A DNA stretch of 39,057 nt, taken from IMG/VR virus record IMGVR_UViG_3300035698_018297, positions 1 through 39,057 of that record, one strand, 5' to 3'. The position numbers were made by a program, and so were the translations under genes. Shown here in pieces: positions 8,818 to 30,635 of this stretch (position 1 is its first letter; every line of letters begins with the position of its first letter). This stretch comes from a virus. The notes beneath the pieces were generated by a model. The model was not told the origin of the DNA and did no database searches. It was given only the letters and a program-made list of their open reading frames with translations.

Positions 8818-8835
8818 AATCGCTCCCCCCTGATC
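8810..8835 (-). repeat. dispersed GATC-ATTTCAAAAAA junction element
   Basis: Read on the minus strand this is GATCAGGGGGGAGC followed by GATTTCAAAAAA. It matches copies at 28605-28630 and, more loosely, 28533-28558 and 10212-10237. A 19-nt core recurs inside a coding region at 19746-19764. The element covers the end of sbcC and precedes the promoter at 8910. Confidence 0.6.
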
Positions 8836-8909
8836 CCCCGCGCTTTTCATTAGAATGAATTGCGTGCCCGCGCGTATAGGCGCCCCCGCCCATGTGAGAA
8901 ACTTAAAAC

Positions 8910-8938
8910 TTGACAGTAGTTTTCCCCCGTGGTATCAT
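8910..8938 (+). promoter_or_regulatory. sigma70-type promoter for the AAA+ ATPase gene
   Basis: TTGACA (8910-8915), 17-bp spacer, TATCAT (8933-8938) with an extended -10 (TGG just before it). The region upstream is AT-rich (AACTTAAAAC). The leader carries GTGAG...CTCAC hairpin arms around 8949-8971. The whole segment of about 70 bp resembles the promoter at 29848-29876. The rest of 8836-8909 shows no gene. Confidence 0.8.
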
Positions 8939-9000
8939 GTAGTTGTCAGTGAGGGAAACGGTTTTTCTCACGGCGTAATGGCTGCATGGGAGCAAGCCAA

Positions 9001-14123: not shown

Positions 14124-14384
14124 ATGAACCTGAAAAATCCTGCGTGGTCCTTGCCTGAGCAGTTCGTGCTCGCGCACTTCGCTGAAAACGCCCTGCGTGG
14201 CTACGGGGTTTTCGTCAGCACATTTGCGTGCTCACACTGTTTGAGCCGCAAAACGGCGGTCCTGTTTATCACGCCTCAGCATGTCGTTCTGGTTGACCGA
14301 AAGGTCAAGTATCGCCACACCCTTACCTCGTGCGGGACGTGCGGCCGAGGGAGCGACTTTGTTTCGGTCGTGACCACGGGCTAA
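14124..14384 (+). CDS. small zinc-ribbon protein R1
   Basis: An 86-aa member of the paralogous family that fills 14.1-24.1 kb. The family helix is at residues 13-27 (QFVLAHFAENALRG). The ribbon is C36-x2-C39 and C70-x2-C73, spaced 31 residues apart. CCACGGAG lies upstream of the ATG. It is separated from the rest of the array by the promoter at 14394, so it can be transcribed from upstream before the array is switched on. Confidence 0.75.
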   Translation: MNLKNPAWSLPEQFVLAHFAENALRGYGVFVSTFACSHCLSRKTAVLFITPQHVVLVDRKVKYRHTLTSCGTCGRGSDFVSVVTTG

Positions 14385-14393
14385 ACATATAAC

Positions 14394-14422
14394 TTGACAG
14401 CTTCAGGCTGAAATAGTATAAT
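14394..14422 (+). promoter_or_regulatory. consensus promoter of the rightward zinc-ribbon array, with spacer palindrome
   Basis: TTGACA (14394-14399), exactly 17 bp, TATAAT (14417-14422): a perfect sigma70 consensus, the only one I found here. The spacer contains the palindrome TTCAG-G-CTGAA (14402-14412), a likely operator placed where a bound repressor would block polymerase. It should drive the run of genes from 14455 to at least 18875. Confidence 0.88.
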
Positions 14423-14454
14423 AGAGTCAGGGAGTTAGGGAAGGAAGGTGCTTT

Positions 14455-14694
14455 ATGAAGGTTGATCCGTGCGTTCGCGAGTTGGTTGCAGAGTGCCTGC
14501 TTCTCGGCTTGCTGTCAGTTTTTAAGAGCGGGACTACAGGCGTGAGTTCTGTCCGGTGTAGCAGGTGTGGTGAGCGCGAGCGGCACTTCTACCGGACGTT
14601 GGACTCTTCAACGATAGGCTCTTTTTGCGATGCTTGCGGGGCGTCAGGGTTGTCTGCTGAGCGCCTTACTGCGGTGGTTGAGAGGGGGCGCTGA
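14455..14694 (+). CDS. small zinc-ribbon protein R2
   Basis: A 79-aa protein, first gene behind the consensus promoter. The helix CVRELVAECLLLGLL spans residues 6-20. Knuckles are C35-x2-C38 and C58-x2-C61, a single ribbon, and a short C-terminal helix follows. In this it is closer to the leftward members than to its multi-knuckle neighbours. GGAAGG precedes the ATG. Confidence 0.75.
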   Translation: MKVDPCVRELVAECLLLGLLSVFKSGTTGVSSVRCSRCGERERHFYRTLDSSTIGSFCDACGASGLSAERLTAVVERGR

Positions 14695-14695
14695 G

Positions 14696-15094
14696 ATGCG
14701 GCGCGTAATGCCAGGACAAGGGGCTTTGGAGCTGCCGCTGCCCGCGCTGCCAGAGAGTCTGGTTGCGGACATGGCGGAAAGCATGATCATCAATGACCAC
14801 GAAGTCCGCGCGGACTTCTGTGCGTGTTGCAGGACGGTAACGACGTTCACGGTGATCACGCTCCACCTTCGCGGGCCGGGCGCGGGTCACACAATGCCGG
14901 TGAAGTTCCGTATGTGCTCCGAGTGTGGCGAGCCGTGGGGCTATCACGAGGCGGGCGGGGAGTGCCCGGTTTGTGCGGCGGGCTGGCTGAAACCGATGTT
15001 CAAGCGCACGGCGGGAAGGGGGGCGGTTTGGTGTAGTGGTTGCGGAATAACTTGGTGGTCCGAGGGATCAGGCGTCTGCGATTCCGAAAAATGA
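14696..15094 (+). CDS. small zinc-ribbon protein R3 (four knuckles)
   Basis: A 132-aa protein. After a Pro-rich lead the helix ESLVADMAESMI covers residues 20-31. Four CxxC knuckles follow at 42/45, 74/77, 90/93 and 113/116, enough for two zinc ribbons. ATG 14696 lies one base after the stop of R2, with GAGAGGGGG upstream. It ends with an ATGA overlap into R4. Confidence 0.75.
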   Translation: MRRVMPGQGALELPLPALPESLVADMAESMIINDHEVRADFCACCRTVTTFTVITLHLRGPGAGHTMPVKFRMCSECGEPWGYHEAGGECPVCAAGWLKPMFKRTAGRGAVWCSGCGITWWSEGSGVCDSEK

Positions 15095-15408
15095 AAGAGG
15101 CCATGAAGGCTGAAATCGTGGAGGCCATGCTCAGCGATGAGGTCGCGAAAGGACAGGGTGGTTCGGTTTGCCAGGAATGCGGTCACGACGAGTACGTCAT
15201 GCTGAAACGACGCTCCGAGCAAGGCGCGCTGGCGAGCGTGTTCGTGTGTGCGGGCTGCTCGGACCTTCAAGTGGCTATCGGGGTGTGTGTCAACTGCCGG
15301 AACAGCGTCCGGCTCAAGAGCTTCTGCAAGCTCACGGGCGAGGGAGTCTGCCCTACCTGCGGAGCCATAGGCCGGTGGCACTTGGAGGGCTGGGACGATG
15401 AAGGCTGA
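15091..15408 (+). CDS. small zinc-ribbon protein R4 (four knuckles)
   Basis: A 105-aa protein with helix MKAEIVEAMLSDEVA (residues 5-19) and knuckles at 27/30, 53/56, 66/69 and 87/90. ATG 15091 overlaps the stop of R3 (ATGA). The bases before it (GGATCAGG...GATTCCGAAAA) resemble the dispersed junction element. The codons for V68-N69 lie in the only minus-strand AGTTGACAC site (15287-15295). Confidence 0.75.
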   Translation: MKEAMKAEIVEAMLSDEVAKGQGGSVCQECGHDEYVMLKRRSEQGALASVFVCAGCSDLQVAIGVCVNCRNSVRLKSFCKLTGEGVCPTCGAIGRWHLEGWDDEG

Positions 15409-15724
15409 CGAGCTTCAGGAGGCGTTTCGGGCCATCGTCACGGAGGCTCTGCTAGAGGGGAGCCCGGTCCTGTTCCCGCTGTCCCGCGCCTGCCCGCACT
15501 GTTTCGGAACGCAGGGCCTTTTGGTCCGGCTGAACGGCAACGCGGCCGACGTGTGCTTGGAGTGCTGCCGGCCGGTAGGTGTCAACGCAGTGTGCAAGGC
15601 GTGCAAAGCACACAGAATCATGATCCCGCTGTTCGATGGCCGCTGGTTGGCCTGCCCGGTGTGTTACGGACGACAGCCGTGGCTGCTTGGGCTGGAAGGG
15701 CTGAGGCTATGCGCGGCAAGTTGA
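15398..15724 (+). CDS. small zinc-ribbon protein R5 (four knuckles)
   Basis: A 108-aa protein, helix FRAIVTEALLEGS (residues 10-22), knuckles at 32/35, 53/56, 66/69 and 86/89. The spacing of the last three pairs is nearly that of R4, so R4 and R5 look like a recent pair. GGAGGG precedes the ATG. It overlaps R4 by 11 nt and R6 by 16 nt. Confidence 0.75.
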   Translation: MKADELQEAFRAIVTEALLEGSPVLFPLSRACPHCFGTQGLLVRLNGNAADVCLECCRPVGVNAVCKACKAHRIMIPLFDGRWLACPVCYGRQPWLLGLEGLRLCAAS

Positions 15725-15978
15725 TAGACCCTGAAGCGATCCGCGCGGATCTGCTCGCGCATTTCGCAGAATTGACGATGGCCGGAGAGTCTTCCGGGGC
15801 GCTCGTTGCTGACCATATGCCGTGCGGGCTCTGCGGCGGCTACACCTTTTCAATCGTTGGGTCGCCGCTCCTGCCCGAAGAGTATTTCGTTTGCCGTAAC
15901 TGTGGCGAGCCCTTGTGGCGCTACAGCGGCGGCACGGCCAAATGCTGGAATGGGATGAGACCTGATGTCGAAGCGTGA
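15709..15978 (+). CDS. small zinc-ribbon protein R6
   Basis: An 89-aa protein, helix IRADLLAHFAELTMAG (residues 11-26), knuckles at 39/42 and 62/65. A lone C79 remains where R4 and R5 have a complete third knuckle, so this looks like a C-terminally shortened four-knuckle type. GGAAGGG and GAGG lie upstream of ATG 15709. Confidence 0.72.
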   Translation: MRGKLIDPEAIRADLLAHFAELTMAGESSGALVADHMPCGLCGGYTFSIVGSPLLPEEYFVCRNCGEPLWRYSGGTAKCWNGMRPDVEA

Positions 15979-16261
15979 GCGACTGGCTTTGTTGGCCGAA
16001 ACGCTACTCAACCCCGACGCGCGGACGTTCGAGCTGGGCCAGGGGTGCTTTTTCTGCCATTCACACGAGGTGGCGCTGTGGATGACGGATCGTTGCCAGG
16101 GCGACGACGTTCACGCGCGCTGTCTCGGCTGCGGGCGCGAGCGAGGGCTCATGCGGTGCTCATACTGCGGCATGATGGCGAAGCATCTGTTCACGGTCTG
16201 GGGCACGGCGAAGTGTACGGCGTGCCGCGATGAGGTCGGTCTACGAGGAACGAGCGTCTGA
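15965..16261 (+). CDS. small zinc-ribbon protein R7 (four knuckles)
   Basis: A 98-aa protein, helix RLALLAETLLNP (residues 6-17), knuckles at 28/31, 53/56, 65/68 and 84/87. It overlaps R6 by 14 nt with GGGATGAGA as ribosome site. The stop is followed within 10 nt by the GTG start of R8. Confidence 0.75.
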   Translation: MSKRERLALLAETLLNPDARTFELGQGCFFCHSHEVALWMTDRCQGDDVHARCLGCGRERGLMRCSYCGMMAKHLFTVWGTAKCTACRDEVGLRGTSV

Positions 16262-16271
16262 GGGGGATCAG

Positions 16272-16567
16272 GTGGACACGATTCGAGAATATGTGCTGGC
16301 CTTCGTCGCCGAAGAGACCCTGCGAGGCTTCAAACCGCCGCCGCAGGAAATCAAGCGGTACCGGCTGCAAGATCCGCTGGTTACGTGCCACCACTGCGGC
16401 GGGGATCAGGTGTTCTACATGGCCTGCGAGTTCGCGTTTGGCAAGGACGTGGCCGTGTGCTCTAGCTGCGGAACGCCGCGCGAGTTCATCGGACTCTGTT
16501 CGAGCACAAGGGCGGAAATCAGTACGCCTGCCGCGTCTGCCACGGCCCGCACACTATCGGCGGCTGA
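16272..16567 (+). pseudogene. zinc-ribbon protein R8, frameshifted near 16490
   Basis: From GTG 16272 (after GAGGGGGATCAG) the frame gives the helix YVLAFVAEETLRG (residues 7-19) and knuckles 39/42 and 63/66. It then drifts into a Ser/Ala-rich tail and would stop only at 16685, deep inside R9. In the frame one base back, codons from about 16496 read LFEHKGGNQYACRVCHGP, with the expected third knuckle, and end at TGA 16565-16567. That is exactly 12 nt before the GTG of R9, the same spacing seen before R8. One base has therefore been lost, or the sequence has an indel error. No slippery heptamer is visible, so programmed frameshifting is less likely. Confidence 0.6.
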
Positions 16568-16578
16568 AGGGGGATCAG

Positions 16579-16938
16579 GTGGACGCGATTCGAGAAAAGC
16601 TGAGCGCCGAAATGGCGGAACGCGCCATCGCCGGGCTGGTCAATGCCAGGGTCGAGACCGGCCGATTCTGTCTCGTCTGTGGTAGCTGGGAGCTGGTTCA
16701 GGTGGTGCTGGTCGGTCACGAGCTGGGACGGGTGCTCGGCGTGAGCACGCTGGCCTGTTCGAGCTGCGGACACCCGAGCGTCTTCTACGCGCGGTGCGAT
16801 TGCACGGCCGGCGTTGGCACAAACTGGCGAGCCAGTAACTCGCACACCTACGAGTGTATGACGTGCGGGAAACGGTCAACAATCCGCGACCTTACAGGGT
16901 ACGACACCGACTCAGTTGACAATAACCGGGAAGGGTAA
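16579..16938 (+). CDS. small zinc-ribbon protein R9 (four knuckles)
   Basis: A 119-aa protein from GTG 16579, preceded by GGGGGATCAG as in R8; the first codons of R8 and R9 are nearly identical at DNA level, a sign of recent duplication. The helix KLSAEMAERAIAG spans residues 7-19, with knuckles at 31/34, 60/63, 73/75 (CDC, one residue short) and 93/96. The stop TAA is one base from the ATG of R10. Confidence 0.75.
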   Translation: MDAIREKLSAEMAERAIAGLVNARVETGRFCLVCGSWELVQVVLVGHELGRVLGVSTLACSSCGHPSVFYARCDCTAGVGTNWRASNSHTYECMTCGKRSTIRDLTGYDTDSVDNNREG

Positions 16939-16939
16939 G

Positions 16940-17317
16940 ATGGGAGTCCGAAAGAGCACAGTTCACGAGCGCAGGCGGGTGCTGGCCTTGATCGCCGAGG
17001 CCACGCTTATCAGGCCGGAAGGGTTGTTCATGCGGCCCACGGCTCGGCGCTGCACTTGCGGCCACATGAGCGCCTACCCGGCTGTGGTGCCCAAGATTCA
17101 GCGTGACCCGAAGCGCAAGCACCGATGGCTGGCGCTCTGCCCGGAGTGCGGGCACTGGTGGCGTCAGCCGTTTGGTCCGTGGGCCGTGTGCCACGACGCC
17201 ATCATGGTGCTCAATCACTCGCCCGTTTCGCGCTTCGCACGGGTACGAGTGGCAGGGGCCGACCCCGCACGGGCTGGCCGGTGGGCCTTGGGGCCGAAGC
17301 AGGGGGCTCCAGAATGA
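16940..17317 (+). CDS. small zinc-ribbon protein R10
   Basis: A 125-aa protein, helix RRVLALIAEATLIRP (residues 12-26). The ribbon is C38-x-C40 (shortened knuckle) and C67-x2-C70. After residue 90 the sequence turns into an Ala/Arg/Val-rich, low-information tail without knuckles, which could itself be the product of an old frameshift. GGGAAGGG precedes ATG 16940, and the stop overlaps the R11 start (ATGA). Confidence 0.7.
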   Translation: MGVRKSTVHERRRVLALIAEATLIRPEGLFMRPTARRCTCGHMSAYPAVVPKIQRDPKRKHRWLALCPECGHWWRQPFGPWAVCHDAIMVLNHSPVSRFARVRVAGADPARAGRWALGPKQGAPE

Positions 17318-17477
17318 GGTCGCCGAGAAAGGTTTTCCTCGACTGGCGCGCTGAGCGCCGGGCAGACGAGGCTAGGTGGCGTGAGTCTACCGCTTTTGCG
17401 AGGGCTGCGGCCAGTACAACGTCGTCGGCCGGAGAACGCGCAATCGCATGAAGTTGCCGCTGGACAGGACGTGGTAA
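17314..17477 (+). pseudogene. zinc-ribbon protein R11, short and frameshifted
   Basis: From ATG 17314 the frame runs 45 codons to a stop at 17451 with no cysteine. One frame over, starting after a TGA at 17382-17384, the DNA encodes VYRFCEGCGQYNVVG and ends at TAA 17475-17477. That TAA overlaps the ATG of R12 by one base, as at intact junctions in this array. The CEGC frame is therefore the likely original C-terminus and an indel lies near 17370-17390. The remnant is shorter than any intact member and lacks a clear first knuckle. Confidence 0.45.
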
Positions 17478-17680
17478 TGGGAGTCTGCCTGACAAAGATT
17501 GCACCTGAGATAGTGGCAGAGGCGAAGGCCAGGGTGGCGGAGGCGTGTCTTTGTGGCAACCCTTGTGTCGTGTCGTCGGCGAATTGTGACTACTGCCACG
17601 CGCGGCAGCGCCTCGCCGAGATTGACGGGAGCATGTACCGCATTTGTGACGGCTGCGGAAACGTGACGTGGTTCGCATGA
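17477..17680 (+). CDS. small zinc-ribbon protein R12
   Basis: A 67-aa protein, the shortest intact member. The helix EIVAEAKARVAEACLCG (residues 11-27) is extended and alanine-rich. Knuckles are at 37/40 and 57/60, and the chain ends soon after. ATG 17477 overlaps the R11 remnant's stop (TAATG); the ribosome site is weak (GGACGTGG). The stop overlaps the ATG of R13. Confidence 0.65.
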   Translation: MGVCLTKIAPEIVAEAKARVAEACLCGNPCVVSSANCDYCHARQRLAEIDGSMYRICDGCGNVTWFA

Positions 17681-17922
17681 CGGCGCAGACGCACACGGTC
17701 AAAGGCGGCTGGTGGATAACGTGGCCGGCTCAGAAGCGGCACAACCTCGCGCTCATAGCTGAGTTGACACTGATTGGCAAGCTCGCGCATTGGATGGACT
17801 GGACGATTCATGCGATGCAGTGTCGGGGCTGCGGACACCGGGGCAAGTTTCCGACCATTCGGGTTCGCGAGGCCCAACAGGAGGCTTGGGTATGCCCGAA
17901 ATGCGGGAAGCGATACTTGTGA
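17677..17922 (+). CDS. small zinc-ribbon protein R13
   Basis: An 81-aa protein with a longer N-terminal lead containing GGWWITW, then the helix HNLALIAELTLIG (residues 22-34). The ribbon is C49/C52 and C73/C76, ending within five residues of the last knuckle. The ELT codons at 17761-17769 contain AGTTGACAC with the rare codons TTG ACA. ATGA overlap with R12. Confidence 0.72.
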   Translation: MTAQTHTVKGGWWITWPAQKRHNLALIAELTLIGKLAHWMDWTIHAMQCRGCGHRGKFPTIRVREAQQEAWVCPKCGKRYL

Positions 17923-17932
17923 GGGGATCAGC

Positions 17933-18289
17933 ATGACGGGATTTCAAGAAACCGTGCTCGCCGGGTTGGCTGAGCTGCGGCTCAAAGGCTTCCTCTCCTC
18001 GCAGGACACGCCCTGGTGCTGTCGTCACTGCTTGGGCGATATGGTGTCGATTCTGGCGGTTGGGCTCGCGGACGACATGGGCAGACAGGTGGAGCTGTTC
18101 GTGTGCGGCACATGCGGCGGGCCGTCTTACGGACGGGCCTACTGCCCGGCCTGCAAGCGCGAGCACATCCTCTCAGTTGACGTAAACGGCACGGCAAGCT
18201 GCCAGACGTGCGGTGAAGAGCTGTATTGGCTGCGTGGTGCGGAAGTGGTGCCGCTTATATCGACGCCTTGGAAGGGATCGGGGTCGTGA
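17933..18289 (+). CDS. small zinc-ribbon protein R14 (four knuckles)
   Basis: A 118-aa protein, helix TVLAGLAELRLKGFL (residues 7-21), knuckles at 30/33, 58/61, 71/74 and 90/93. The spacing of pairs 2-4 matches R15, and the two genes share a near-identical 5' end (GATTTCAAGAAA), so they are sister copies. GAGGGGATCAG precedes the ATG, a version of the junction element. The stop overlaps the GTG of R15. Confidence 0.76.
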   Translation: MTGFQETVLAGLAELRLKGFLSSQDTPWCCRHCLGDMVSILAVGLADDMGRQVELFVCGTCGGPSYGRAYCPACKREHILSVDVNGTASCQTCGEELYWLRGAEVVPLISTPWKGSGS

Positions 18290-18648
18290 GATTTCAAGAA
18301 AAGGTGCTCGCGGCACTGGCCGAGTCACGGTTGTCGGGCGCCACGGACGGTAGGGTGCCGGTGACGTGTTCGGCTTGCCGGGCTAGCTCACAGCTAGTTC
18401 CTGTCGTGTATCAACCGTCCCACGTCGGCGGGGGCCATTCGTTCGTGCTGTATGCGCGCGAGGCTTGCGGGAACGTGAACCATGCAACGGGAGTCTGCCG
18501 AAACTGCGTGACGCGGTATGGAAAGCTGCTCGTGACGGACGGTGGTGTCGTCTACTGTTTCACATGCGGGCAGCCGGTTCCCTGGACGGAAAACGGGGGC
18601 GACGTGGTGCCGCCGCTGAGCGATGCGAAACGAGGGGTGCGGCGATGA
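18286..18648 (+). CDS. small zinc-ribbon protein R15
   Basis: A 120-aa protein from GTG 18286 (GTGA overlap with R14). Helix KVLAALAESRLSG is at residues 6-18. Knuckles are 28/31, 71/74 and 91/94. At the second position only C61 remains (AREACG where R14 has VCGTCG), so one zinc site has probably been lost. The C-terminal tail is basic. Confidence 0.73.
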   Translation: MRFQEKVLAALAESRLSGATDGRVPVTCSACRASSQLVPVVYQPSHVGGGHSFVLYAREACGNVNHATGVCRNCVTRYGKLLVTDGGVVYCFTCGQPVPWTENGGDVVPPLSDAKRGVRR

Positions 18649-18875
18649 TAACGATGCGTGAATTGGCTTGTGCGACCTTGGCGGAAAACGCATTAGGTGG
18701 CAAGGCGTCAGCACACACGGGTATGATGGCAGCGTGTGGGGTGTGTGGCGAGCTGGCTGACATGATTTGGCTGAACGTGGGCGGTAGGGGACGTGGGCGC
18801 TCAGTGCGGTTTTGCGGGGCTTGCGGCTCCGTCACCCCGTCCCACACTCGGTGCGACCAATGTGATTCCCTATAG
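18645..18875 (+). CDS. small zinc-ribbon protein R16
   Basis: A 76-aa protein, helix ACATLAENALGGKA (residues 8-21), knuckles at 31/34, 57/60 and a terminal 70/73. It is the last member of the rightward array and ends three residues after the final knuckle. The ATG overlaps the stop of R15 (ATGA). The next 106 bp contain only a possible promoter. Confidence 0.74.
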   Translation: MITMRELACATLAENALGGKASAHTGMMAACGVCGELADMIWLNVGGRGRGRSVRFCGACGSVTPSHTRCDQCDSL

Positions 18876-18916
18876 GACACGGTACCAGACAACACAGGGG
18901 CTCGCGTATGCCTGGG

Positions 18917-18946
18917 TTGCGGCAAGATTCAAAGATGGTGTATCGT
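18917..18946 (+). promoter_or_regulatory. possible promoter for the HTH protein gene
   Basis: TTGCGG (18917-18922), 18-bp spacer, TATCGT (18941-18946), 35 bp before ATG 18982. Both boxes are imperfect, so this is a weak call; read-through from the array is the alternative. Confidence 0.35.
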
Positions 18947-18981
18947 CGTCATTGAGAAAGCCCACGAAATGGAGCAGCACC

Positions 18982-19875
18982 ATGAAGCCCTACGTGCCAC
19001 GAACGACCGCGATGTCAGAAGACAGGAAGGAAGCGACAAAAGCCAAGGAGAACCGCAAACGTAGACGCCGAACCATGACGTTCACGAAGTACCAGCAGGC
19101 GCTCGACTACTTCAGAGACCTGGGGGACTGTTCGGACGTGAACATATCGGAAGCAAGCCGCGTACTTGGCCTGGAACGGCAGACGGTTTCAAGGGCGCTG
19201 GATCAGGGCTGGATGCAACACAACCCGCCCTGGGTGCCGATAAAGGTTATGATTGCCGACGAACAGAAACGAGCACGAGCAGAAAGGTCGGACTTGCAGC
19301 GGGCACTTGTGAAGGAAGCGGCGAGCATTGCCAAGAAAGCTCAGGAAGACGCTATCAAAGCTCGCGCACAGGAGGGTTTACTGGTCGCAGGAGTGCGTGG
19401 TGCAGCGGGTCGCCTGCTCCAACAGTCCGTTCGGTTGATACAAACTGGCGATGCTCTGGCGAAGGCGATTGAGCCCCGGTTGATACGAATTGCCGAGTTG
19501 GCCGCTCAGGGCGATTCGGCCGAAAACCGTCAATCGGTCGGAGACGTGCTCGCGCTCATGGAACGGTTCCTGGGCTTCGCCAAGGGCTCGACTCAGATGG
19601 TACACGAGGCGATGGTGCTCGAACGCAAGTTCCTGGGCGAAGCTGAGGCCGTTCTGGGGGTCAAGTCGGACATGGACTTGCACGAAGCCATCTCGGAGCT
19701 GGCGGCCGCGCATATCACGCTCGGACGGCACGACGGCGGAAATACGAAATCGCTCCCCCCTGATACCGCTCAGCTCCTAGCCGATGCGGGCGTGCCCCTG
19801 ACCCCTGACCAAATGCCAGTTGACACAAACGCGGATATGGAGCTAGTTGATGCAAACTCCAGCGATATGGATTGA
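18982..19875 (+). CDS. HTH protein with long helical region (possible small terminase or DNA-binding scaffold)
   Basis: A 297-aa protein. The N-terminus is strongly basic (ENRKRRRRTM near residue 27). A helix-turn-helix, ISEASRVLGLERQTVSRAL, occupies about residues 55-73. The rest is a long Ala/Lys/Glu-rich helical region, probably coiled coil, with an acidic C-terminus. This domain order resembles phage small terminase subunits, but the large subunit is 12 kb away at 31773, so I hold that open. The 3' part contains a 19-nt match to the junction element (19746-19764) and AGTTGACAC at 19818. ATG 18982 has GGAG 7 nt upstream. Confidence 0.65.
   Translation: MKPYVPRTTAMSEDRKEATKAKENRKRRRRTMTFTKYQQALDYFRDLGDCSDVNISEASRVLGLERQTVSRALDQGWMQHNPPWVPIKVMIADEQKRARAERSDLQRALVKEAASIAKKAQEDAIKARAQEGLLVAGVRGAAGRLLQQSVRLIQTGDALAKAIEPRLIRIAELAAQGDSAENRQSVGDVLALMERFLGFAKGSTQMVHEAMVLERKFLGEAEAVLGVKSDMDLHEAISELAAAHITLGRHDGGNTKSLPPDTAQLLADAGVPLTPDQMPVDTNADMELVDANSSDMD
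19746..19764 (-). repeat. copy of the dispersed junction element inside a gene
   Basis: The plus strand GAAATCGCTCCCCCCTGAT is identical to bases 8816-8834 at the end of sbcC. Here it encodes the KSLPPD segment of the HTH protein, so the element has entered, or arisen in, a coding region. Confidence 0.5.
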
Positions 19876-20200
19876 ACTCTCAACCTCGCAGCTCCTCGCG
19901 CGCTACCTGCGTGAGCGCACGGGCCAGGACTGGAAGGCCATTGAAGGCAAGCCCAGCGGGCGCTTCACGCGGGTACTCGGTACCGTACAGGCTGAGTACG
20001 AAACGTGCCTGATGGCGAGACAGCCTCCCCACTTCGGCGGTTTCATCGCGTGTGACACTGAGAACACCATAGCGGCTCGTGCTACGGGGGCTACGCCTAT
20101 CGAGGCCCTGCGCGCATGGGGGCTCGTGGTGGTGGAACGCTTCGACATGATCTCGGAGATCGTGGAAGATTTGACGGCCCTGGGGATGATGGGGGGCTGA
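19850..20200 (+). CDS. hypothetical protein
   Basis: A 116-aa soluble alpha/beta protein that overlaps the preceding gene by 26 nt. ATG 19850 has GGAG 7 nt upstream (19839-19842). The centre (FGGFIACDTENTIAARATGATPIEALRAWGL) has the look of a small beta-alpha fold. No family recognised. It is the last rightward gene before the convergent junction. Confidence 0.62.
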   Translation: MQTPAIWIELSTSQLLARYLRERTGQDWKAIEGKPSGRFTRVLGTVQAEYETCLMARQPPHFGGFIACDTENTIAARATGATPIEALRAWGLVVVERFDMISEIVEDLTALGMMGG

Positions 20201-20356
20201 AGGGGGGCGAGCCTAGCTCGCAGACTCCTAGCCTAGCTCGTTCGGTTGAGAAAAACGAAATCATGCGCCCCTGATCGCCCACATGCGCGCACGTTACAGT
20301 TGATAGAAACACGCGCGTAAGGGGGGCGGGGGTAAAACTCCCTAAATGGCCTGGGG

Positions 20357-20380
20357 AAAGGGTGATTAACCATCCTTTTT
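20357..20380 (+). terminator. intrinsic terminator at the convergent junction
   Basis: AAAGGGTG (20357-20364) pairs with the complementary arm at 20371-20378 across a 6-nt loop, with one G-U pair, and a T run (20376-20380). It should stop rightward transcription of the array. The rest of 20201-20356 has no gene, but holds CCTAGCTCG repeats near 20210 and 20230 and a degenerate junction element near 20262-20276. Confidence 0.6.
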
Positions 20381-20390
20381 CGTGCGGACT

Positions 20391-20471
20391 TTTTCGCTTT
20401 CAGCGTAGACAGGCAAACTGTTTACCGTGGCCTTTTCGCTTTCAGCGTAGACAGGCAAACTGTTTACCGTG
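20391..20471. repeat. two 39-bp direct repeats, period 42 bp, each with a 15-bp palindrome
   Basis: Copies at 20391-20429 and 20433-20471 are identical over 39 bp and start 42 bp apart, close to four turns of B-DNA. Each contains GGCAAACTGTTTACC (20412-20426 and 20454-20468), a near-palindrome with 7-bp arms and one mismatched pair. The second copy overlaps the stop codon of zinc-ribbon gene L13. The arrangement suggests cooperative protein binding on one face of the helix, or iterons. Confidence 0.85.
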
Positions 20472-20739
20472 ACGAGGGGGCGAGATTCCGAAAAACGGTG
20501 GCAAGGTCGTTAAAAAAGTCTTCCACAGAAAGGATTGCGCTCCCGCAGCCATCGCAAACGAGGATTTCCGCCGCGAAGGGCCATTCGTCTCGCCCAGAGT
20601 CTATCCGCGAGAAGTATTTGACGCCCGTTCCGTGTCCGCAGGCTTCGCAGCCGTGAATGAAGAAGGTTTTACCCTGGCCCACGAAGTCACGGACCGCCGC
20701 CTCGGCGAGCGCAGCCTTCTGGGATTCAGTCAACTGCAA
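20464..20739 (-). CDS. small zinc-ribbon protein L13
   Basis: A 91-aa protein, last gene of the leftward array. The N-terminus MQLTESQKAALAEAAVRDF carries the family helix. Knuckles are at 31/34 and 62/65, followed by the C-terminal helix DFFNDLATVFRNL typical of leftward members. Its stop codon lies within the second 39-bp repeat. It overlaps L12 by 14 nt. Confidence 0.76.
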   Translation of the reverse strand: MQLTESQKAALAEAAVRDFVGQGKTFFIHGCEACGHGTGVKYFSRIDSGRDEWPFAAEILVCDGCGSAILSVEDFFNDLATVFRNLAPSSR

Positions 20740-21082
20740 CAGGGGCCCCCAGATCAGCGGGTTGGGATTTCATAATTTTTCTCAGCAAGGCTTCCAGCCC
20801 GTCGAAAGTATCGCCGGAAGACATAGCGCAAAGCGCAGTCAGCCACTTCGGGAGTCGGGCGAGCGGTAGCGCCTGATTCCATGTCAGAACGTGCAGCCCT
20901 TCCTCGCAGACTACGAACCAAAGCGTGGGGAGCCCGCCGGAACGGGTGCGGGTAGGGGTCATGTAGGCAGTGGCGAAATAGTGGCCGCACTCCTCGCAGA
21001 CTTTGACGGTCCCCAGCGGCGTGAGTATGTTCTTGAGCAGCAGCTCGGAGATGCAGGCTTGGAGGTCTTTAGTTGTCCGCAA
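20726..21082 (-). CDS. zinc-ribbon protein L12, divergent
   Basis: A 118-aa protein if TTG 21082 is the start; no better start codon was found, and the TTG lies next to the stop of L11. The helix DLQACISELLLKNIL (residues 6-20) and first knuckle C29/C32 fit the family. Only C59 of the second knuckle remains. The middle is read in a different frame from the homologous DNA in L6 (see findings), so this copy has probably shifted frame. The C-terminal helix (GLEALLRKIMK) is intact. Confidence 0.58.
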   Translation of the reverse strand: MRTTKDLQACISELLLKNILTPLGTVKVCEECGHYFATAYMTPTRTRSGGLPTLWFVVCEEGLHVLTWNQALPLARLPKWLTALCAMSSGDTFDGLEALLRKIMKSQPADLGAPVAVD

Positions 21083-21326
21083 CAGTGGTCTTCGATTCCA
21101 AATTATGGCCCAGCAGGTGCCGCAGGCGCGGCCAATACTTGCCCTCTGTCCAGTAGGCTCCACAGCCATCGCAAGCCTTAATCCAGGCGTTCGAGCCACA
21201 CCACGCCGATTCCAGCAGCCCGGCGCAGTCGGGGCAGCGGCCGAGCACTTCGTAAAAGCGCACGAGCCCGCACAGCCCGCCTTCGGCGAGCACTGCACGT
21301 TCGTCGTCGGTCAGGTGTGTCGTCAT
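21069..21326 (-). CDS. small zinc-ribbon protein L11
   Basis: An 85-aa protein, helix DERAVLAEGGLCGLV (residues 8-22), knuckles 31/34 and 52/55, C-terminal helix YWPRLRHLLGHNL. The ATG directly abuts the TAA of L10. Downstream it runs 14 nt into the L12 reading frame. Confidence 0.75.
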   Translation of the reverse strand: MTTHLTDDERAVLAEGGLCGLVRFYEVLGRCPDCAGLLESAWCGSNAWIKACDGCGAYWTEGKYWPRLRHLLGHNLESKTTVADN

Positions 21327-21554
21327 TTAGAAGCTCGTCAGGGCGATTGTCAGGAAGAACTTGTTGATTTCGTCCGTGACTCCCATTTCGCACGCTTCGC
21401 AGAAGGGGAGCATCAGGCTAGATACGCGGTCGTAGTGGCGAATGCGCGTGCAACCGCATTCCTTGCAGGCGAGGGTGGACGGAATAATGTTTAGCCTGCC
21501 AACGAGTGTCTTTTCCGCGATGATGGCGCGCTCAATTTCTGTCATTTTCCGCAT
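21327..21554 (-). CDS. small zinc-ribbon protein L10
   Basis: A 75-aa protein, helix EIERAIIAEKTLVGRL (residues 6-21), knuckles 30/33 (with extra C35) and 52/55, C-terminal helix EINKFFLTIAL. ATG 21554 is chosen because GGAGG lies 7 nt upstream. The in-frame ATG 21545 would instead give the ATGA overlap common in the array. Confidence 0.74.
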   Translation of the reverse strand: MRKMTEIERAIIAEKTLVGRLNIIPSTLACKECGCTRIRHYDRVSSLMLPFCEACEMGVTDEINKFFLTIALTSF

Positions 21555-21814
21555 TCAGACGCCTCCAGTGCTCGTTTCAGTTGAGAGAAAAACACACGCT
21601 CGACCGTTTCGTTGGAGCAGATGGCCCGGCAGTGAGAGCACAGCGACAGGGCGCGGTCTATGTGGTGGAGCTGGTCGAGCACGAACACCCCGCCTGACTG
21701 CGTGCGCCCGCACGAGCACATGGCCCCAAAGAAGCTGTCGGTCGTGGTCGTGACGTCGGCCAGCTCGCCTTCCGTGAGCAGCGCCTCTTGCTCGACTGTC
21801 AGGTAGCGCCTCAT
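21542..21814 (-). CDS. small zinc-ribbon protein L9
   Basis: A 90-aa protein, helix VEQEALLTEGELADV (residues 7-21), knuckles 33/35 (CSC) and 59/62, C-terminal helix VFFSQLKRALEAS. ATGA overlap with L8 and 13-nt overlap with L10. Confidence 0.74.
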   Translation of the reverse strand: MRRYLTVEQEALLTEGELADVTTTTDSFFGAMCSCGRTQSGGVFVLDQLHHIDRALSLCSHCRAICSNETVERVFFSQLKRALEASECGK

Positions 21815-22065
21815 TTTCGGCGCGGCCGATTCAGCAACATACCAACCATCTGCCAGAAGTCGCCGAGCGTCCACGAATCGCCGCAGTGCTTGCACAGCTT
21901 CAGCTCATGGCCCCCGGCGCGGGTGCTGTAAACCGTGAGCTGGACGAAACCCGCCCGGAAGCACCGGAAGCAGTTGCAGGTCGCCATTCGTTGCTCGCTC
22001 AGGTTGACGACCCCCTCAATATCAGCTTCCACGAGCAGGGCTTTCCGTTTTTCAGTCAGCTTCAT
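21811..22065 (-). CDS. small zinc-ribbon protein L8
   Basis: An 84-aa protein, N-terminus MKLTEKRKALLVEADIEG almost identical in DNA to the start of L7 and L6. Cysteines at 30, 32 and 35 form the first site and 58/61 the second. The C-terminal helix is DFWQMVGMLLNR with a basic end (RPRRK). It overlaps L7 by 14 nt. Confidence 0.75.
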   Translation of the reverse strand: MKLTEKRKALLVEADIEGVVNLSEQRMATCNCFRCFRAGFVQLTVYSTRAGGHELKLCKHCGDSWTLGDFWQMVGMLLNRPRRK

Positions 22066-22340
22066 CGGGCGGCCCTATCATCCTGTTTTGTATCTCTTCC
22101 TCGATGCACGAGCAGAGCCCTTGCATCTCCCCTGAGACGCGGGCGCAGCCGTCGCAGACGCGCGCCCAGTGTACGACATCGGCATCCGTTCGGGTGTCAA
22201 GCTGGCTCAGCCGTACCCAGTATTCCAGAACCCCCCTCGCCGCAGTTCGAGCAGGTGTCGCCGGCAAGCTTGCCGGTGTCGATGAAACCGTGCAGCACGC
22301 CTCCTACGAGCAGGGCTTTCTGAGTTTCAGTCAGCTTCAT
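22052..22340 (-). pseudogene. zinc-ribbon protein L7, frameshifted at a six-G run
   Basis: From ATG 22340 the frame gives MKLTETQKALLVGGVLHG, knuckle C30/C33 and then stops early (47 aa, TGA at 22197-22199). Removing one G from the six-G run (C6 on the plus strand, 22231-22236) joins it to VLEYWVRLSQLDT, the second knuckle CDGC, and a C-terminal helix ending at 22052, giving a normal-length protein with a normal 14-nt overlap into L8. Either the sequence has a homopolymer error, or the gene is broken or phase-variable at this tract. Confidence 0.62.
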
Positions 22341-22702
22341 CGCGTCAGCTCCGCCCAGGCCGGCAGGTTGATCCTGGCCTCGTCCAGCAGCTCGGAGACG
22401 GACTGCGGGGCCGCGCCCCGCCGGAACGGGTGTGGGTAGGGAATCATGCCGCCACAGCAGCCACAGCAGCCACAGCAGCCCAGCACGGGCGCGGAGTTGT
22501 GCGAGTAGACCAGTGGGTCCGGAATGTCGCCCGCGCAGTGCCCACAGGCGAGGGTGATCATGCCGCTCTTGCGCGTCCTCCGCCCCGCTCCGTCGCGGCC
22601 ATCCCCCTCCGCAGTGTCAAACGGGCTTCCAGGCCGGATAGTGAAGTAGCCCGCGAGCACACACTCAGCGAGCACGGCTTTTTGTGTTTCAGTCAACTGC
22701 AT
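22337..22702 (-). CDS. small zinc-ribbon protein L6 with expanded second knuckle
   Basis: A 121-aa protein, N-terminus MQLTETQKAVLAECVLAG, a long basic loop (residues 27-48), knuckle C53/C56, then GCCGCCGCCGG (residues 75-85) created by three copies of a 9-bp repeat (22452-22478). The C-terminal helix VSELLDEARINL closes the chain. The ATG overlaps the L5 stop by one base (TGATG). Confidence 0.73.
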   Translation of the reverse strand: MQLTETQKAVLAECVLAGYFTIRPGSPFDTAEGDGRDGAGRRTRKSGMITLACGHCAGDIPDPLVYSHNSAPVLGCCGCCGCCGGMIPYPHPFRRGAAPQSVSELLDEARINLPAWAELTR

Positions 22703-23064
22703 CAGGGGGCTCCGATTCCAGAATCTTGGACAGGGTTTCGGTTGCAGGCGATTTCTACCTCGCTCCGCAGTGCCTTGAAGAATCCCTCCCCGGCCGACCC
22801 GTACAGCAAAATGCCGCAGGCGGCGCAGTAGGGCAGAACGCAGTACATCGAATTCAGGCAGTCCCAGACTCTCAGCTCGACGGTTGCGTGGACGCTGCAA
22901 TACGGACAGAACCGCGTTCTACGGGTCTCGGTCAGCAGGTTTAGCAGCTCGCCCTCAGCGATGGCGGCGCGTTGCTCATTGGCGGTCGTGGCCCACTCCG
23001 TGAGTACGTGGCGCAGCCGGGCCTCTGCGAGCAGAGCTTGTTCGCGCTCGTCAAACTCAATCAT
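22702..23064 (-). CDS. small zinc-ribbon protein L5 with duplicated N-terminal helix
   Basis: A 120-aa protein. The family helix occurs twice: EREQALLAEARLRHVL (residues 6-21) and NEQRAAIAEGELLNLL (29-44), as if one gene start had fused onto another. Knuckles are 53/56 and 80/83, with extra cysteines at 69, 75 and 107. The C-terminal helix is GFFKALRSEVE. The leader is a version of the junction element (GATC...GATCTCAAAAATG). Confidence 0.74.
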   Translation of the reverse strand: MIEFDEREQALLAEARLRHVLTEWATTANEQRAAIAEGELLNLLTETRRTRFCPYCSVHATVELRVWDCLNSMYCVLPYCAACGILLYGSAGEGFFKALRSEVEIACNRNPVQDSGIGAP

Positions 23065-23303
23065 TTTTGAGATCCCCTCCCGCTGATCCGCAGCGTTTGC
23101 CAGAACGTGCTTCGGTGGCGCGCGGCCCCGCAGCCCTCGCAGATGTACAGCCAGTCGAGCCCGGTAGCGACAACCCAGTATTCGGCGCGCGGGTGTGTCT
23201 GACGACACTTTGTGCAGAAATCTTCGACGCTTTGGTGCAGCGCGAGCCGCCCATCGAGCAGTCCCTCAGCCAGCTCAGCCCGCTGCCGGTCGGACAGCTT
23301 CAT
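23061..23303 (-). CDS. small zinc-ribbon protein L4
   Basis: An 80-aa protein, N-terminus MKLSDRQRAELAEGLLDGRL, knuckles 30/33 and 55/58, C-terminal helix TFWQTLRIS. ATGA overlaps at both ends. It is the most compact example of the leftward architecture and a good reference for it. Confidence 0.76.
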   Translation of the reverse strand: MKLSDRQRAELAEGLLDGRLALHQSVEDFCTKCRQTHPRAEYWVVATGLDWLYICEGCGAARHRSTFWQTLRISGRGSQK

Positions 23304-23566
23304 TTTGGGCTTCCCGACAGCCGTTGCTTGAGCAGAGCGAAGAAGTCTCGGTCGCCCCAGAAGTTGCAGCAGTTGTCACAAACTGTGAGTTGCTGCCAGG
23401 GCCACCGGCCCTTTCTGGCTGTCCCGGCTTGAATCTCGGTGACTCGCTTGGGGTCCATCACCCCGTACTCGGTCATTGTGACTTCGACGGCGCCCCGGCA
23501 GGAGCAGACGCGGCCTTCGTTGGTGCGGGCCTTCAGCGCGCCGGCCAACACGCCCTCGACCAGCAT
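23300..23566 (-). CDS. small zinc-ribbon protein L3, start codon possibly lost
   Basis: An 88-aa protein from ATG 23566 (MLVEGVLAGAL). The upstream in-frame codons read RVSDTNRA, which align with the first residues of the other members, but no ATG, GTG or TTG precedes them. The original start has probably been lost, leaving a shortened helix. Knuckles are 21/23 (CSC) and 63/66, with the C-terminal helix DFFALLKQRL. A weak ribosome site (TAGGG) is present. Confidence 0.65.
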   Translation of the reverse strand: MLVEGVLAGALKARTNEGRVCSCRGAVEVTMTEYGVMDPKRVTEIQAGTARKGRWPWQQLTVCDNCCNFWGDRDFFALLKQRLSGSPK

Positions 23567-23570
23567 GGCC

Positions 23571-23837
23571 CTATTCGTGTCGGAGACTCGTAAGCAGCGC
23601 CATCCTTTCCGTCGCCCAGCGAAGGGCGCTGCCTAGGTGTCGAGGCTTGTCCGGCATGTCTCCGCACAGCGGGCAGTACCGGACGTGGTACGGGTTTCGG
23701 TTCCGCCGTATTTCAGCGAACAGATGAGTCTGATCGCAGTCCGCGCATTTCGTGCCAACGGCCGGCACAAAAACCGAAATCGCGCCCGCCAGATCCGCTT
23801 CGGCCAGGGTCGCCCGCTGTTCGATGGTCAGGTTCAT
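23571..23837 (-). CDS. small zinc-ribbon protein L2
   Basis: An 88-aa protein, N-terminus MNLTIEQRATLAEADLAG, knuckles 31/34 and 55/58, C-terminal helix LGSALRWATERMALL. ATGA overlap with L1. The stop TAG lies 4 nt before the ATG of L3. Confidence 0.75.
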   Translation of the reverse strand: MNLTIEQRATLAEADLAGAISVFVPAVGTKCADCDQTHLFAEIRRNRNPYHVRYCPLCGDMPDKPRHLGSALRWATERMALLTSLRHE

Positions 23838-24091
23838 GCGCCCTTCCGCCCTATGAGCGCCAGCGACCGGCGTATCTGCTGGAAGAACAGGTCTGCGCTG
23901 ACCCGCAAGGGCCGCCCACACTCACACAGGCGGGCGGTGATAAAGCTCGGCCGGTGCGTCATGTATTCGTTGTAGAGGCTCGAACCACAGCTCGGGCAAG
24001 GTGCGGACCCCTTTTTCTGAACGTGGATCAGGACCACTTCGGCCAGCACAGCCTCCGCCAGCATGTCGGATTCCTGCTCGCTGAACTGCAT
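23834..24091 (-). CDS. small zinc-ribbon protein L1
   Basis: An 85-aa protein and the first zinc-ribbon gene of the leftward transcript. N-terminus MQFSEQESDMLAEAVLAEVV, knuckles 32/35 and 56/58 (CEC), C-terminal helix DLFFQQIRRSLAL. Its ATG overlaps the stop of the leader gene at 24091-24351 (ATGA). Confidence 0.75.
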   Translation of the reverse strand: MQFSEQESDMLAEAVLAEVVLIHVQKKGSAPCPSCGSSLYNEYMTHRPSFITARLCECGRPLRVSADLFFQQIRRSLALIGRKGA

Positions 24092-24351
24092 CAGTTGGCC
24101 CTGCTGCCTTTGCTGTCGAGCGTGGCAACCAGGGCCGACACCGTGGCGACCACACGCGCGTTCACGTCAGGCGCTCCGCAGAGCAGGATGAAGCCGTAGT
24201 CAATGCCCCCGTCCTTACTGTCCTGAAGCCCGGAGATCATCGCGTTGTTGTCGAGCCCGTCGTCGTGGGTGCTCGCAGTCAACGCCAGCGTCGCGTGGGA
24301 TTTTCTCAGCATCGCCAGCGAGGCCAGGATGCGTTTTCCAGTTGACATCAT
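24091..24351 (-). CDS. hypothetical leader gene of the leftward array
   Basis: An 86-aa protein without cysteine knuckles, so not a zinc-ribbon member. It contains GGIDYGFILLCGAPDVNARVVATVSALVATL, an alpha/beta-looking C-terminal half. GGAGGG lies 7 nt before ATG 24351 (a second ATG follows at 24348). As first gene behind the leftward promoter it is a candidate regulator or partner of the array. I recognise no family. Confidence 0.65.
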   Translation of the reverse strand: MMSTGKRILASLAMLRKSHATLALTASTHDDGLDNNAMISGLQDSKDGGIDYGFILLCGAPDVNARVVATVSALVATLDSKGSRAN

Positions 24352-24373: not shown

Positions 24374-24420
24374 CAGAATCGTACACCCCCGATTCTGTCA
24401 GGTGTCGCGCTGCCGGTCAA
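24374..24420 (-). promoter_or_regulatory. leftward promoter with operator hairpin over the -10
   Basis: On the minus strand: TTGACC (24420-24415), 17-bp spacer, CAGAAT (24397-24392). The -10 lies inside one arm of a perfect 8-bp inverted repeat, CAGAATCG (24374-24381) and its complement (24390-24397). This is a plausible repressor site for the leftward zinc-ribbon array, or an attenuator stem in the leader. Confidence 0.5.
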
Positions 24421-25539: not shown

Positions 25540-25815
25540 CTACTGCGCGGACACAACCGGGTTGGGGGAGTCGAGCTGGTAGCGCCAGTTGATCTCACCG
25601 CCCATGTCGGGGAGCTTTTGCGGTGGCTCGACGAGCGTGCAGCCGGGGCCGCACTTCAGGAATTTCAGGCGGCCGATCTCCGGGTGCCCCAGGTCGGCGT
25701 TGCGGTAAGCATACCAGTCACCGCCACGCTCGCGCATGGTGGCGAGGGCTTCCGGGTCAATTTCGGCCACGATGGCGGCAGTCTTCTGCCGCCCGGTCAC
25801 GGTTTTGTCGCTCAT
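25540..25815 (-). CDS. hypothetical protein with a CGPGC motif
   Basis: A 91-aa protein with a basic start, a central WYAYRN segment and a single CGPGC. It lacks the family helix and a second knuckle, so I do not count it as a zinc-ribbon member. GAGGAATTGAA precedes ATG 25815, which overlaps the stop of the next upstream gene (ATGA). Confidence 0.62.
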   Translation of the reverse strand: MSDKTVTGRQKTAAIVAEIDPEALATMRERGGDWYAYRNADLGHPEIGRLKFLKCGPGCTLVEPPQKLPDMGGEINWRYQLDSPNPVVSAQ

Positions 25816-26087
25816 TTCAATTCCTCTTTCAGTCGCTCGGCGAAGCGAGCGGGGTTGTACGGTTCTGCGATGCGCCCGCACTTGCAGAGCGCGATCACGT
25901 TATCGTTGCAGTCCCAGCGCCAGTTTTGAAGGTCTCCGACGACGTGGCTCCGATAGTCTCGCCGGCAGGGCCAGCAGTAGTAAGGATTGACCAGTTGGTT
26001 CAGTTGTTTGACCTTGCCGGTCAGGAGCCCTTCGGCGACCAGCCCGGCAAGCTCCGTGCCGGGTTTGACTGTCTTCTGTAGTCCCAC
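25812..26087 (-). CDS. isolated zinc-ribbon protein S1
   Basis: A 91-aa family member away from the main arrays. The helix ELAGLVAEGLLTGKV spans residues 12-26, knuckles are 38/41 and 68/70 (CKC), and the C-terminal helix RFAERLKEELK matches the leftward type. It starts at GTG 26087 behind GGAGTCTGAGC, directly after the 50-bp junction element at 26089-26139. Confidence 0.72.
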   Translation of the reverse strand: MGLQKTVKPGTELAGLVAEGLLTGKVKQLNQLVNPYYCWPCRRDYRSHVVGDLQNWRWDCNDNVIALCKCGRIAEPYNPARFAERLKEELK

Positions 26088-27095: not shown

Positions 27096-27149
27096 TTTCA
27101 GACTCCGTGGTTGACGTGAACTGGTTTTTTGAAATCGCACACCCCTGAT

Positions 27150-27175
27150 CCGGGCGGGACTCGCGCCCCGCCCGG
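27150..27175 (-). terminator. stem-loop between leftward genes
   Basis: CCGGGCGGG (27150-27158) pairs with CCCGCCCGG (27167-27175). It lies 7 nt after the stop of the gene at 27183-27650 and forms the stem-loop of another junction element. Confidence 0.6.
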
Positions 27176-28523: not shown

Positions 28524-28532
28524 GTGAGGCTG

Positions 28533-28630
28533 GATCGGGGGTCTCGGATTTCAAAAAACCGTTTTGCGCGCCAGCTCGTTGTGCGTTCCTTCTTTATTGG
28601 CCGGGATCAGGGGGGAGTGATTTCAAAAAA
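28533..28630 (+). repeat. two direct copies of the junction element
   Basis: GATCGGGGG...GATTTCAAAAAACC at 28533-28559 and GATCAGGGGGG...GATTTCAAAAAACG at 28605-28632 lie 72 bp apart. The second leads into the promoter at 28639. There is no gene in 28369-28712. Confidence 0.65.
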
Positions 28631-29458: not shown

Positions 29459-29776
29459 TTGACGCTGACGATCACAAGGGACGGCGTTCGGGCGGAGATC
29501 GTGGAGGCGCAGCTTCGAGATCGTGCGAGGCTCACTCAGCTCCGCCTGAACCCGTGCCCAGGCTGCGAGCGCGTCTCGGACGTCGGTGGACTCTCGATCT
29601 CGAAAGCTCGCTATGGGCAGTTGACACTAAATCCGAACAAACCAGAGTGGAAGTGTGGCCGGCTGGTCGCCTGTGATTGCGGCTGGGCCGGCTGGGTTCC
29701 GCGAATCGTTCAGCAGGCGTCCCATCGTCCGCGCTGGCCGAAGACTTGGGTTTCGGCCGCTCCCGACCGCCCATAG
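29459..29776 (+). CDS. isolated zinc-ribbon protein S2
   Basis: A 105-aa family member outside the arrays, starting at TTG 29459 right after the previous stop. The helix VRAEIVEAQLRD spans residues 10-21, with knuckles C33/C36 and C72/C74 (CDC). QLTLNP is encoded through the AGTTGACAC 9-mer at 29619. The tail after residue 80 is basic and unstructured-looking. Confidence 0.66.
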   Translation: MTLTITRDGVRAEIVEAQLRDRARLTQLRLNPCPGCERVSDVGGLSISKARYGQLTLNPNKPEWKCGRLVACDCGWAGWVPRIVQQASHRPRWPKTWVSAAPDRP

Positions 29777-29847
29777 CCTTTTCCCAAATCCTGCACCCCC
29801 GATCCGCACCCTCTCACGCACACCCCTACACATGAGAAACTTTTTTC

Positions 29848-29876
29848 TTGACAAGGGGTTTTCCCTGTGATACCAT
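29848..29876 (+). promoter_or_regulatory. sigma70-type promoter, twin of the one at 8910
   Basis: TTGACA (29848-29853), 17 bp, TACCAT (29871-29876) with TGA before it (extended -10). The flanks resemble those of 8891-8960, including CATG...GAGAAACTT upstream and ATGTAGTTG..AGTGAGG downstream. The leader has a GGGGAA/TTCCCC hairpin at 29891-29907. Confidence 0.8.
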
Positions 29877-29938
29877 GTAGTTGAGAGTGAGGGGAAGCAG
29901 TTTCCCCGAAAACAACCACGGGACACGGGAGAGAGCAA

Positions 29939-30585: not shown

Positions 30586-30635
30586 GCGCCCCCGTGAGGA
30601 TCGGGGGCGCGGGATTTCAAAAAAGGAGTCTGAGC
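30586..30635 (+). repeat. 50-bp gene-junction element
   Basis: Stem GCGCCCCCG (30586-30594), 7-nt loop, CGGGGGCGC (30602-30610), then GGGATTTCAAAAAAGGAGTC and TGAGC up to ATG 30636. It works as terminator of the upstream gene and ribosome site of the next. An inverted near-copy lies at 26089-26139. Confidence 0.78.

Follow-up and report, generated by a model that had tools for sequence, protein, structure and literature searches.

The locus raises the question of why a phage genome should carry two long operons of tiny cysteine-rich genes, and whether these genes are versions of one protein. The window, that is the whole stretch of DNA analysed, is a 39,057-base virus record in which the arrays lie between 14.1 and 24.1 kb. 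The two operons are convergent, one running rightward (14124-18875) and one leftward (24091-20464), and two single copies lie outside them, all exactly where a first-pass annotation had located them. Two unrelated genes (18982-20200) separate the arrays, and another unrelated gene heads the leftward operon (Table 1). A count of 16 rightward and 13 leftward genes had been claimed. The 13 leftward genes were recovered, one of them frameshifted, but the rightward array holds 15 family members, the sixteenth being broken and doubtful. Approximately 27 members are intact. The family occupies 8.4 kb, or 9.0 kb including the single copies, rather than the "about 10 kb" reported earlier. The genes are indeed tightly fused, with overlaps or gaps of ≤10 nt at nearly all junctions. 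Knuckle number in the rightward set, described as mostly three or four, varies from 2 to 4. Three frameshifts were inferred: a 1-nt loss in R8 (around 16,500), one in the R10/R11 stretch (17,200-17,470), and one in L7 at a G6 run near 22,236. They could be genuine decay or assembly errors alike.

Table 1. Genes of the two arrays (R, rightward; L, leftward), single copies (S) and promoter sites, with positions in the window
Feature	Position	Strand	Description	Evidence
R1	14124..14384	+	helix and 2 knuckles; 5' of array promoter	leave-one-out E 7.8e-7
Promoter	14394..14422	+	sigma70-like, TTGACA-17-TATAAT, with TTCAGgCTGAA in spacer	12/12 consensus match
R2	14455..14694	+		leave-one-out profile
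R3	14696..15094	+	4 knuckles	leave-one-out profile
R4	15091..15408	+	4 knuckles	leave-one-out profile
R5	15398..15724	+	4 knuckles	leave-one-out profile
R6	15709..15978	+		leave-one-out profile
R7	15965..16261	+	4 knuckles	leave-one-out profile, weak, E 7e-4
R8	16272..16577	+	GTG start; putative 1-nt frameshift, last knuckle in other frame	leave-one-out profile
R9	16579..16938	+	GTG start	leave-one-out profile
R10	16940..17317	+	tail probably frameshifted	leave-one-out profile
R11?	17314..17478	+	broken, doubtful member	three-frame reading only
R12	17477..17680	+		leave-one-out profile
R13	17677..17922	+		leave-one-out profile
R14	17933..18289	+	4 knuckles	leave-one-out profile, structure model (pLDDT 84.6)
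R15	18286..18648	+	GTG start	leave-one-out profile
R16	18645..18875	+		leave-one-out profile
L13	20464..20739	-	TTG start	leave-one-out profile
L12	20726..21082	-	TTG start	leave-one-out profile, weak, E 2e-4
L11	21069..21326	-		leave-one-out profile
L10	21327..21554	-		leave-one-out profile
L9	21542..21814	-		leave-one-out profile
L8	21811..22065	-		leave-one-out profile, structure model (pLDDT 91.8)
L7	22052..22340	-	putative frameshift at G6 run	profile match, three-frame reading
L6	22337..22702	-		leave-one-out profile, weak, E 2e-4
L5	22702..23064	-	two helix-like repeats	leave-one-out profile
L4	23061..23303	-		leave-one-out profile
L3	23300..23566	-	helix short at its start	leave-one-out profile
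L2	23571..23837	-		leave-one-out profile
L1	23834..24091	-		leave-one-out profile
Unrelated gene	24091..24351	-	first gene of leftward operon; stop/start overlap with L1	
Promoter-like site	24392..24420	-	TTGACC-17-CAGAAT	9/12 sigma70 match
S1	25812..26087	-	single copy, leftward type	leave-one-out E 1e-4
S2	29459..29776	+	single copy	leave-one-out E 7e-6, helix block

Family membership was assessed with leave-one-out profiles, which recovered all 29 members tested with scores of 13.6-43.8 bits, compared with ≤11.5 bits for composition-matched shuffles. The genes are thus one paralogous family, as had been proposed. The family architecture is a helix (xxLxAExxLxG) at the N-terminus followed by one or two zinc ribbons; when aligned, the leftward and rightward sets have in common this helix, in which a Glu is invariant, and a pair of CxxC knuckles. 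Profile-profile comparison of the two sets gave a probability of 96% (E 1.9e-9). The leftward profile, built without any rightward member, picked up rightward genes from E 4e-6; in the reverse search, leftward genes matched the rightward profile from E 6e-7. The same leftward profile found none of 36 zinc-ribbon matches in Bacillus phage G, so shared cysteines alone do not account for the matches within the family. The helix is detectable across the arrays on its own: an ungapped leftward helix block matched 10 of the 15 rightward members and both single copies at shuffle p < 0.05, the remaining five rightward members being individually not significant.

Structure models agree with a shared N-terminal helix. 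The AlphaFold2 model of L8, built on the family's own alignment, is a confident helix-ribbon-helix, with helix 5-16, a beta ribbon holding the knuckles and helix 70-78; the R14 model has helix 4-17 followed by the strands of two ribbons. The C-terminal helix is predicted as an extra feature of the leftward members. Fold searches gave no significant match, only weak generic ones with Z below 4, among them Elf1, RPB9, the ATCase regulatory chain and ribosomal zinc ribbons. The best description from the models is a zinc ribbon extended by helices, for which these searches offered no informative match. Phage G gp445 and gp446 were among the non-significant Foldseek matches, but contain no CxxC knuckle.

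The family is strongly diverged. Pairwise amino-acid identity averages 34-40% in the helix, 94-100% at the cysteines and approximately 12% elsewhere: the helix and cysteines have been kept by protein-level selection while the remainder drifted. The 5' ends of the genes had been described as more alike in DNA than the rest. The higher similarity is real, but where residues are identical their third bases do not show it (identity 0.38-0.45 in the helix and 0.40-0.51 in the rest), so that it reflects amino-acid conservation and not recent gene conversion. The exceptions are a few junctions with a 27-bp repeat that recurs throughout the genome. Neighbouring genes, which tandem duplication would make more alike, showed no such signal in the arrays; similarity was independent of gene order, and the duplications are therefore old or have been reshuffled.

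Relatives of the family were sought in Pfam, PHROGs, NCBIfam, PADLOC and isolated phages, and none was found within the reach of these searches. Library matches were weak and scattered over many families, for example TIGR03655 (Lar; E 0.014, one member, in an NCBIfam run covering the rightward set only) and PHROG 6422 (E 0.066, one member). The Lar restriction-alleviation proteins, the YgiT finger, Zn_ribbon_3 and DZR are likewise small zinc ribbons and gave weak profile matches to single members, but no family is common to most members, and the arrays are not an assortment of unrelated known families. Scans with DNA patterns from the 5' ends, covering IMG/VR for both arrays and genome contigs for the leftward one, returned only chance loci when checked with the profiles, and tblastn of R14 and L11 against phages, read up to E 10, brought up no credible match. 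A profile search of approximately 1,400 bacterial genomes from four phylum-level groups yielded one match; this is a weak negative, since 13-18 candidates were scored per genome. The match reads as a ribosomal L24-like protein and was discarded. The record itself, used as positive control, gave 23 matches. No member resembled a known anti-defence or RNA-polymerase-binding protein.

In the literature on other phage paralog arrays, a remark on Bacillus phage G alone turned up. Comparing jumbo phages, Iyer et al. (2021, PMC7824862) reported an expansion to approximately 35 zinc ribbons in this phage and proposed them to be 'specific TFs' or 'structural DNA-binding proteins'. Our phage G profile search gave 36 matches, 28 of which form one tandem array, gp444-gp474, with further copies at gp32, gp34, gp35, gp37, gp46 and others. 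Both phages thus carry dozens of small, closely packed and mostly tandem zinc-ribbon paralogs, and the phage G proteins, too, conserve a terminal helix while the rest of the sequence varies. However, the phage G array spans 18 kb on the same strand, whereas two orientations are used here, and its members are approximately 200 aa long with an added N-terminal region. Their single ribbon has CxxC and CxxxC knuckles in place of the two CxxC knuckles in our alignments, which also lack the conserved C-terminal YWKENDRYL stretch. Phage G infects Bacillus megaterium and has a 497-kb genome. Alignment with hhalign gave probabilities of 2.5 and 2.3, with just one knuckle aligned. Judged by profile comparison, the two families are unrelated, and the arrays are a second, independent case of lineage-specific tandem zinc-ribbon expansion in a phage. 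The locus had been called exceptional. It is unusual for a compact phage genome to hold a large tandem repertoire of a single tiny protein, but phage G has a larger array of its own.

Each array had been assigned its own promoter with an operator-like palindrome. Both were found for both operons, but the rightward promoter falls after the first gene. At the leftward promoter-like site, CAGAATCG-N8-CGATTCTG spans and passes the -10 element. Promoters that could be read by a host sigma70, together with translational coupling within the operons, suggest early expression by the host polymerase.

The 27-bp element GGATCRGGGGNNNNNGATTTCAAAAAA is dispersed over approximately 34 sites in both orientations, for example at 8810-8836(-), 15065-15091(+), 23063-23089(-), 27125-27151(-), 28532-28558(+) and 30598-30624(+). 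Thirteen copies have ≤3 mismatches (0 expected), and with approximate gene models 26 of 32 sites lie at gene boundaries or are intergenic (7.9 expected). Several array junctions hold the element, and several intergenic copies carry GC-rich hairpins. No exact match was found in IMG/VR. Cluster K mycobacteriophages (PMC3203893) and cluster EF Microbacterium phages (PMC7302621) have start-associated sequences that are likewise short and numerous in each genome; these mark the starts of genes and are frequently preceded by inverted repeats. The present element differs from them in sequence, in occurring in both orientations and in marking gene ends as well as starts.

What the proteins do can be approached by weighing several readings. 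They may be phage transcription factors or other sequence-specific nucleic-acid binders, with the 27-bp boundary repeat as a possible recognition site. Zinc ribbons occur widely in transcription, the profile searches gave weak matches to RPB9/RPA12 and GATA and the fold searches weak ones to Elf1 and RPB9, the boundary repeats supply many possible targets, and the same proposal is in print for the phage G family (PMC7824862). Yet such generic zinc-ribbon matches are unspecific (Z below 4), and approximately 30 diverged readers of one repeated motif are hard to explain. The net charge of intact members ranges from about -5 to +8 and is often negative; this mixture argues against one uniform nucleic-acid role, and we regard the nucleic-acid-binding reading as unlikely. 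The first-pass annotation suggested one common partner for the shared helix. In this reading the partner could be RNA polymerase, the ribosome, a chaperone or a protease, and the variable ribbons would act as adaptors. The helix, with its invariant Glu, is the best-conserved stretch besides the cysteines, but the same conservation, including that of hydrophobic residues, is equally expected of a packing core. The leftward model predicts the helix with high confidence, and the leftward and rightward helices differ in detail. From the models, the helix may be the core of the fold rather than a common docking site, and a single shared partner seems quite improbable.

A further reading is that recombination at the repeated boundary element has amplified the genes in a mostly neutral or selfish way and that they do little. 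This would be in keeping with the repeat at several array junctions, with three broken-looking members and with the RecA, SSB and SbcCD-like proteins encoded by the phage. Against it, divergence has reached saturation and third bases vary, yet the helix and cysteines persist, and most frames are open and tightly coupled. We therefore consider this reading very unlikely.

The explanation we tentatively prefer, while giving it somewhat less than an even chance, is that one small zinc-ribbon family underwent a lineage-specific expansion into an early battery in which each member binds a different host target. The host RNA polymerase would transcribe the array genes early, and each paralog would be a small binder that contacts its own target through the variable surface of its ribbon, candidates being host defence, transcription or replication proteins. 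The gene set would turn over through duplication, divergence and loss, like a host-takeover or counter-defence battery. Variable net charge and ribbon number are expected if partners are diverse, the three frameshifted members fit birth and death, and the orphan status fits fast host-directed evolution. The unity of the family, its predicted fold, the conserved scaffold with variable heads, the early-type promoters, the coupled operons, the non-structural location and the parallel array in phage G count in favour of a host-target battery. Gene order that does not track similarity, frameshifts that are possibly assembly errors, the lack of resemblance to known anti-defence or RNA-polymerase-binding proteins and the failure to find relatives in which copy number could be compared count against it. 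That a second case exists, and an unrelated one, points to zinc-ribbon scaffolds being favoured for repertoires of this kind. It is conceivable, though doubtful, that phages have repeatedly and independently made a zinc ribbon plus helix into a modular binding scaffold, a tandem repertoire in which each host defence target has its own inhibitor or adaptor; the present arrays and phage G would then be two unrelated examples. The approximately 27 intact small proteins are on offer for one-by-one testing against host targets.

The first 25 kb of the record gave no near DNA match among 50,697 phage records, and no relatives of the virus were found in IMG/VR via SbcD, MoxR, PolA or terminase. The record encodes PolA, a gp32-like SSB, RecA, an SLT-domain protein, SbcD- and SbcC-like ORFs, a MoxR-like AAA protein with a DUF2201/VWA partner, and a terminase. 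The arrays sit in the non-structural region, beside the SSB, RecA, PolA, SbcCD-like and MoxR/VWA genes. In PolA (430-3045), the N-terminal stretch ahead of the 3'-5' exonuclease domain has a weak uracil-DNA glycosylase match (E 1.5e-4, under the Pfam cut-off). At 35006-36082, a single protein combines a ParB-like domain and a DNA methyltransferase (PHROGs). Directly after the leftward array, a 42-bp unit with AAACaGTTT is perfectly duplicated in tandem (20391-20471). Finally, two 79-bp stretches (8880-8958 and 29818-29896) are 72% alike, each with a TTGACA-type promoter sequence.
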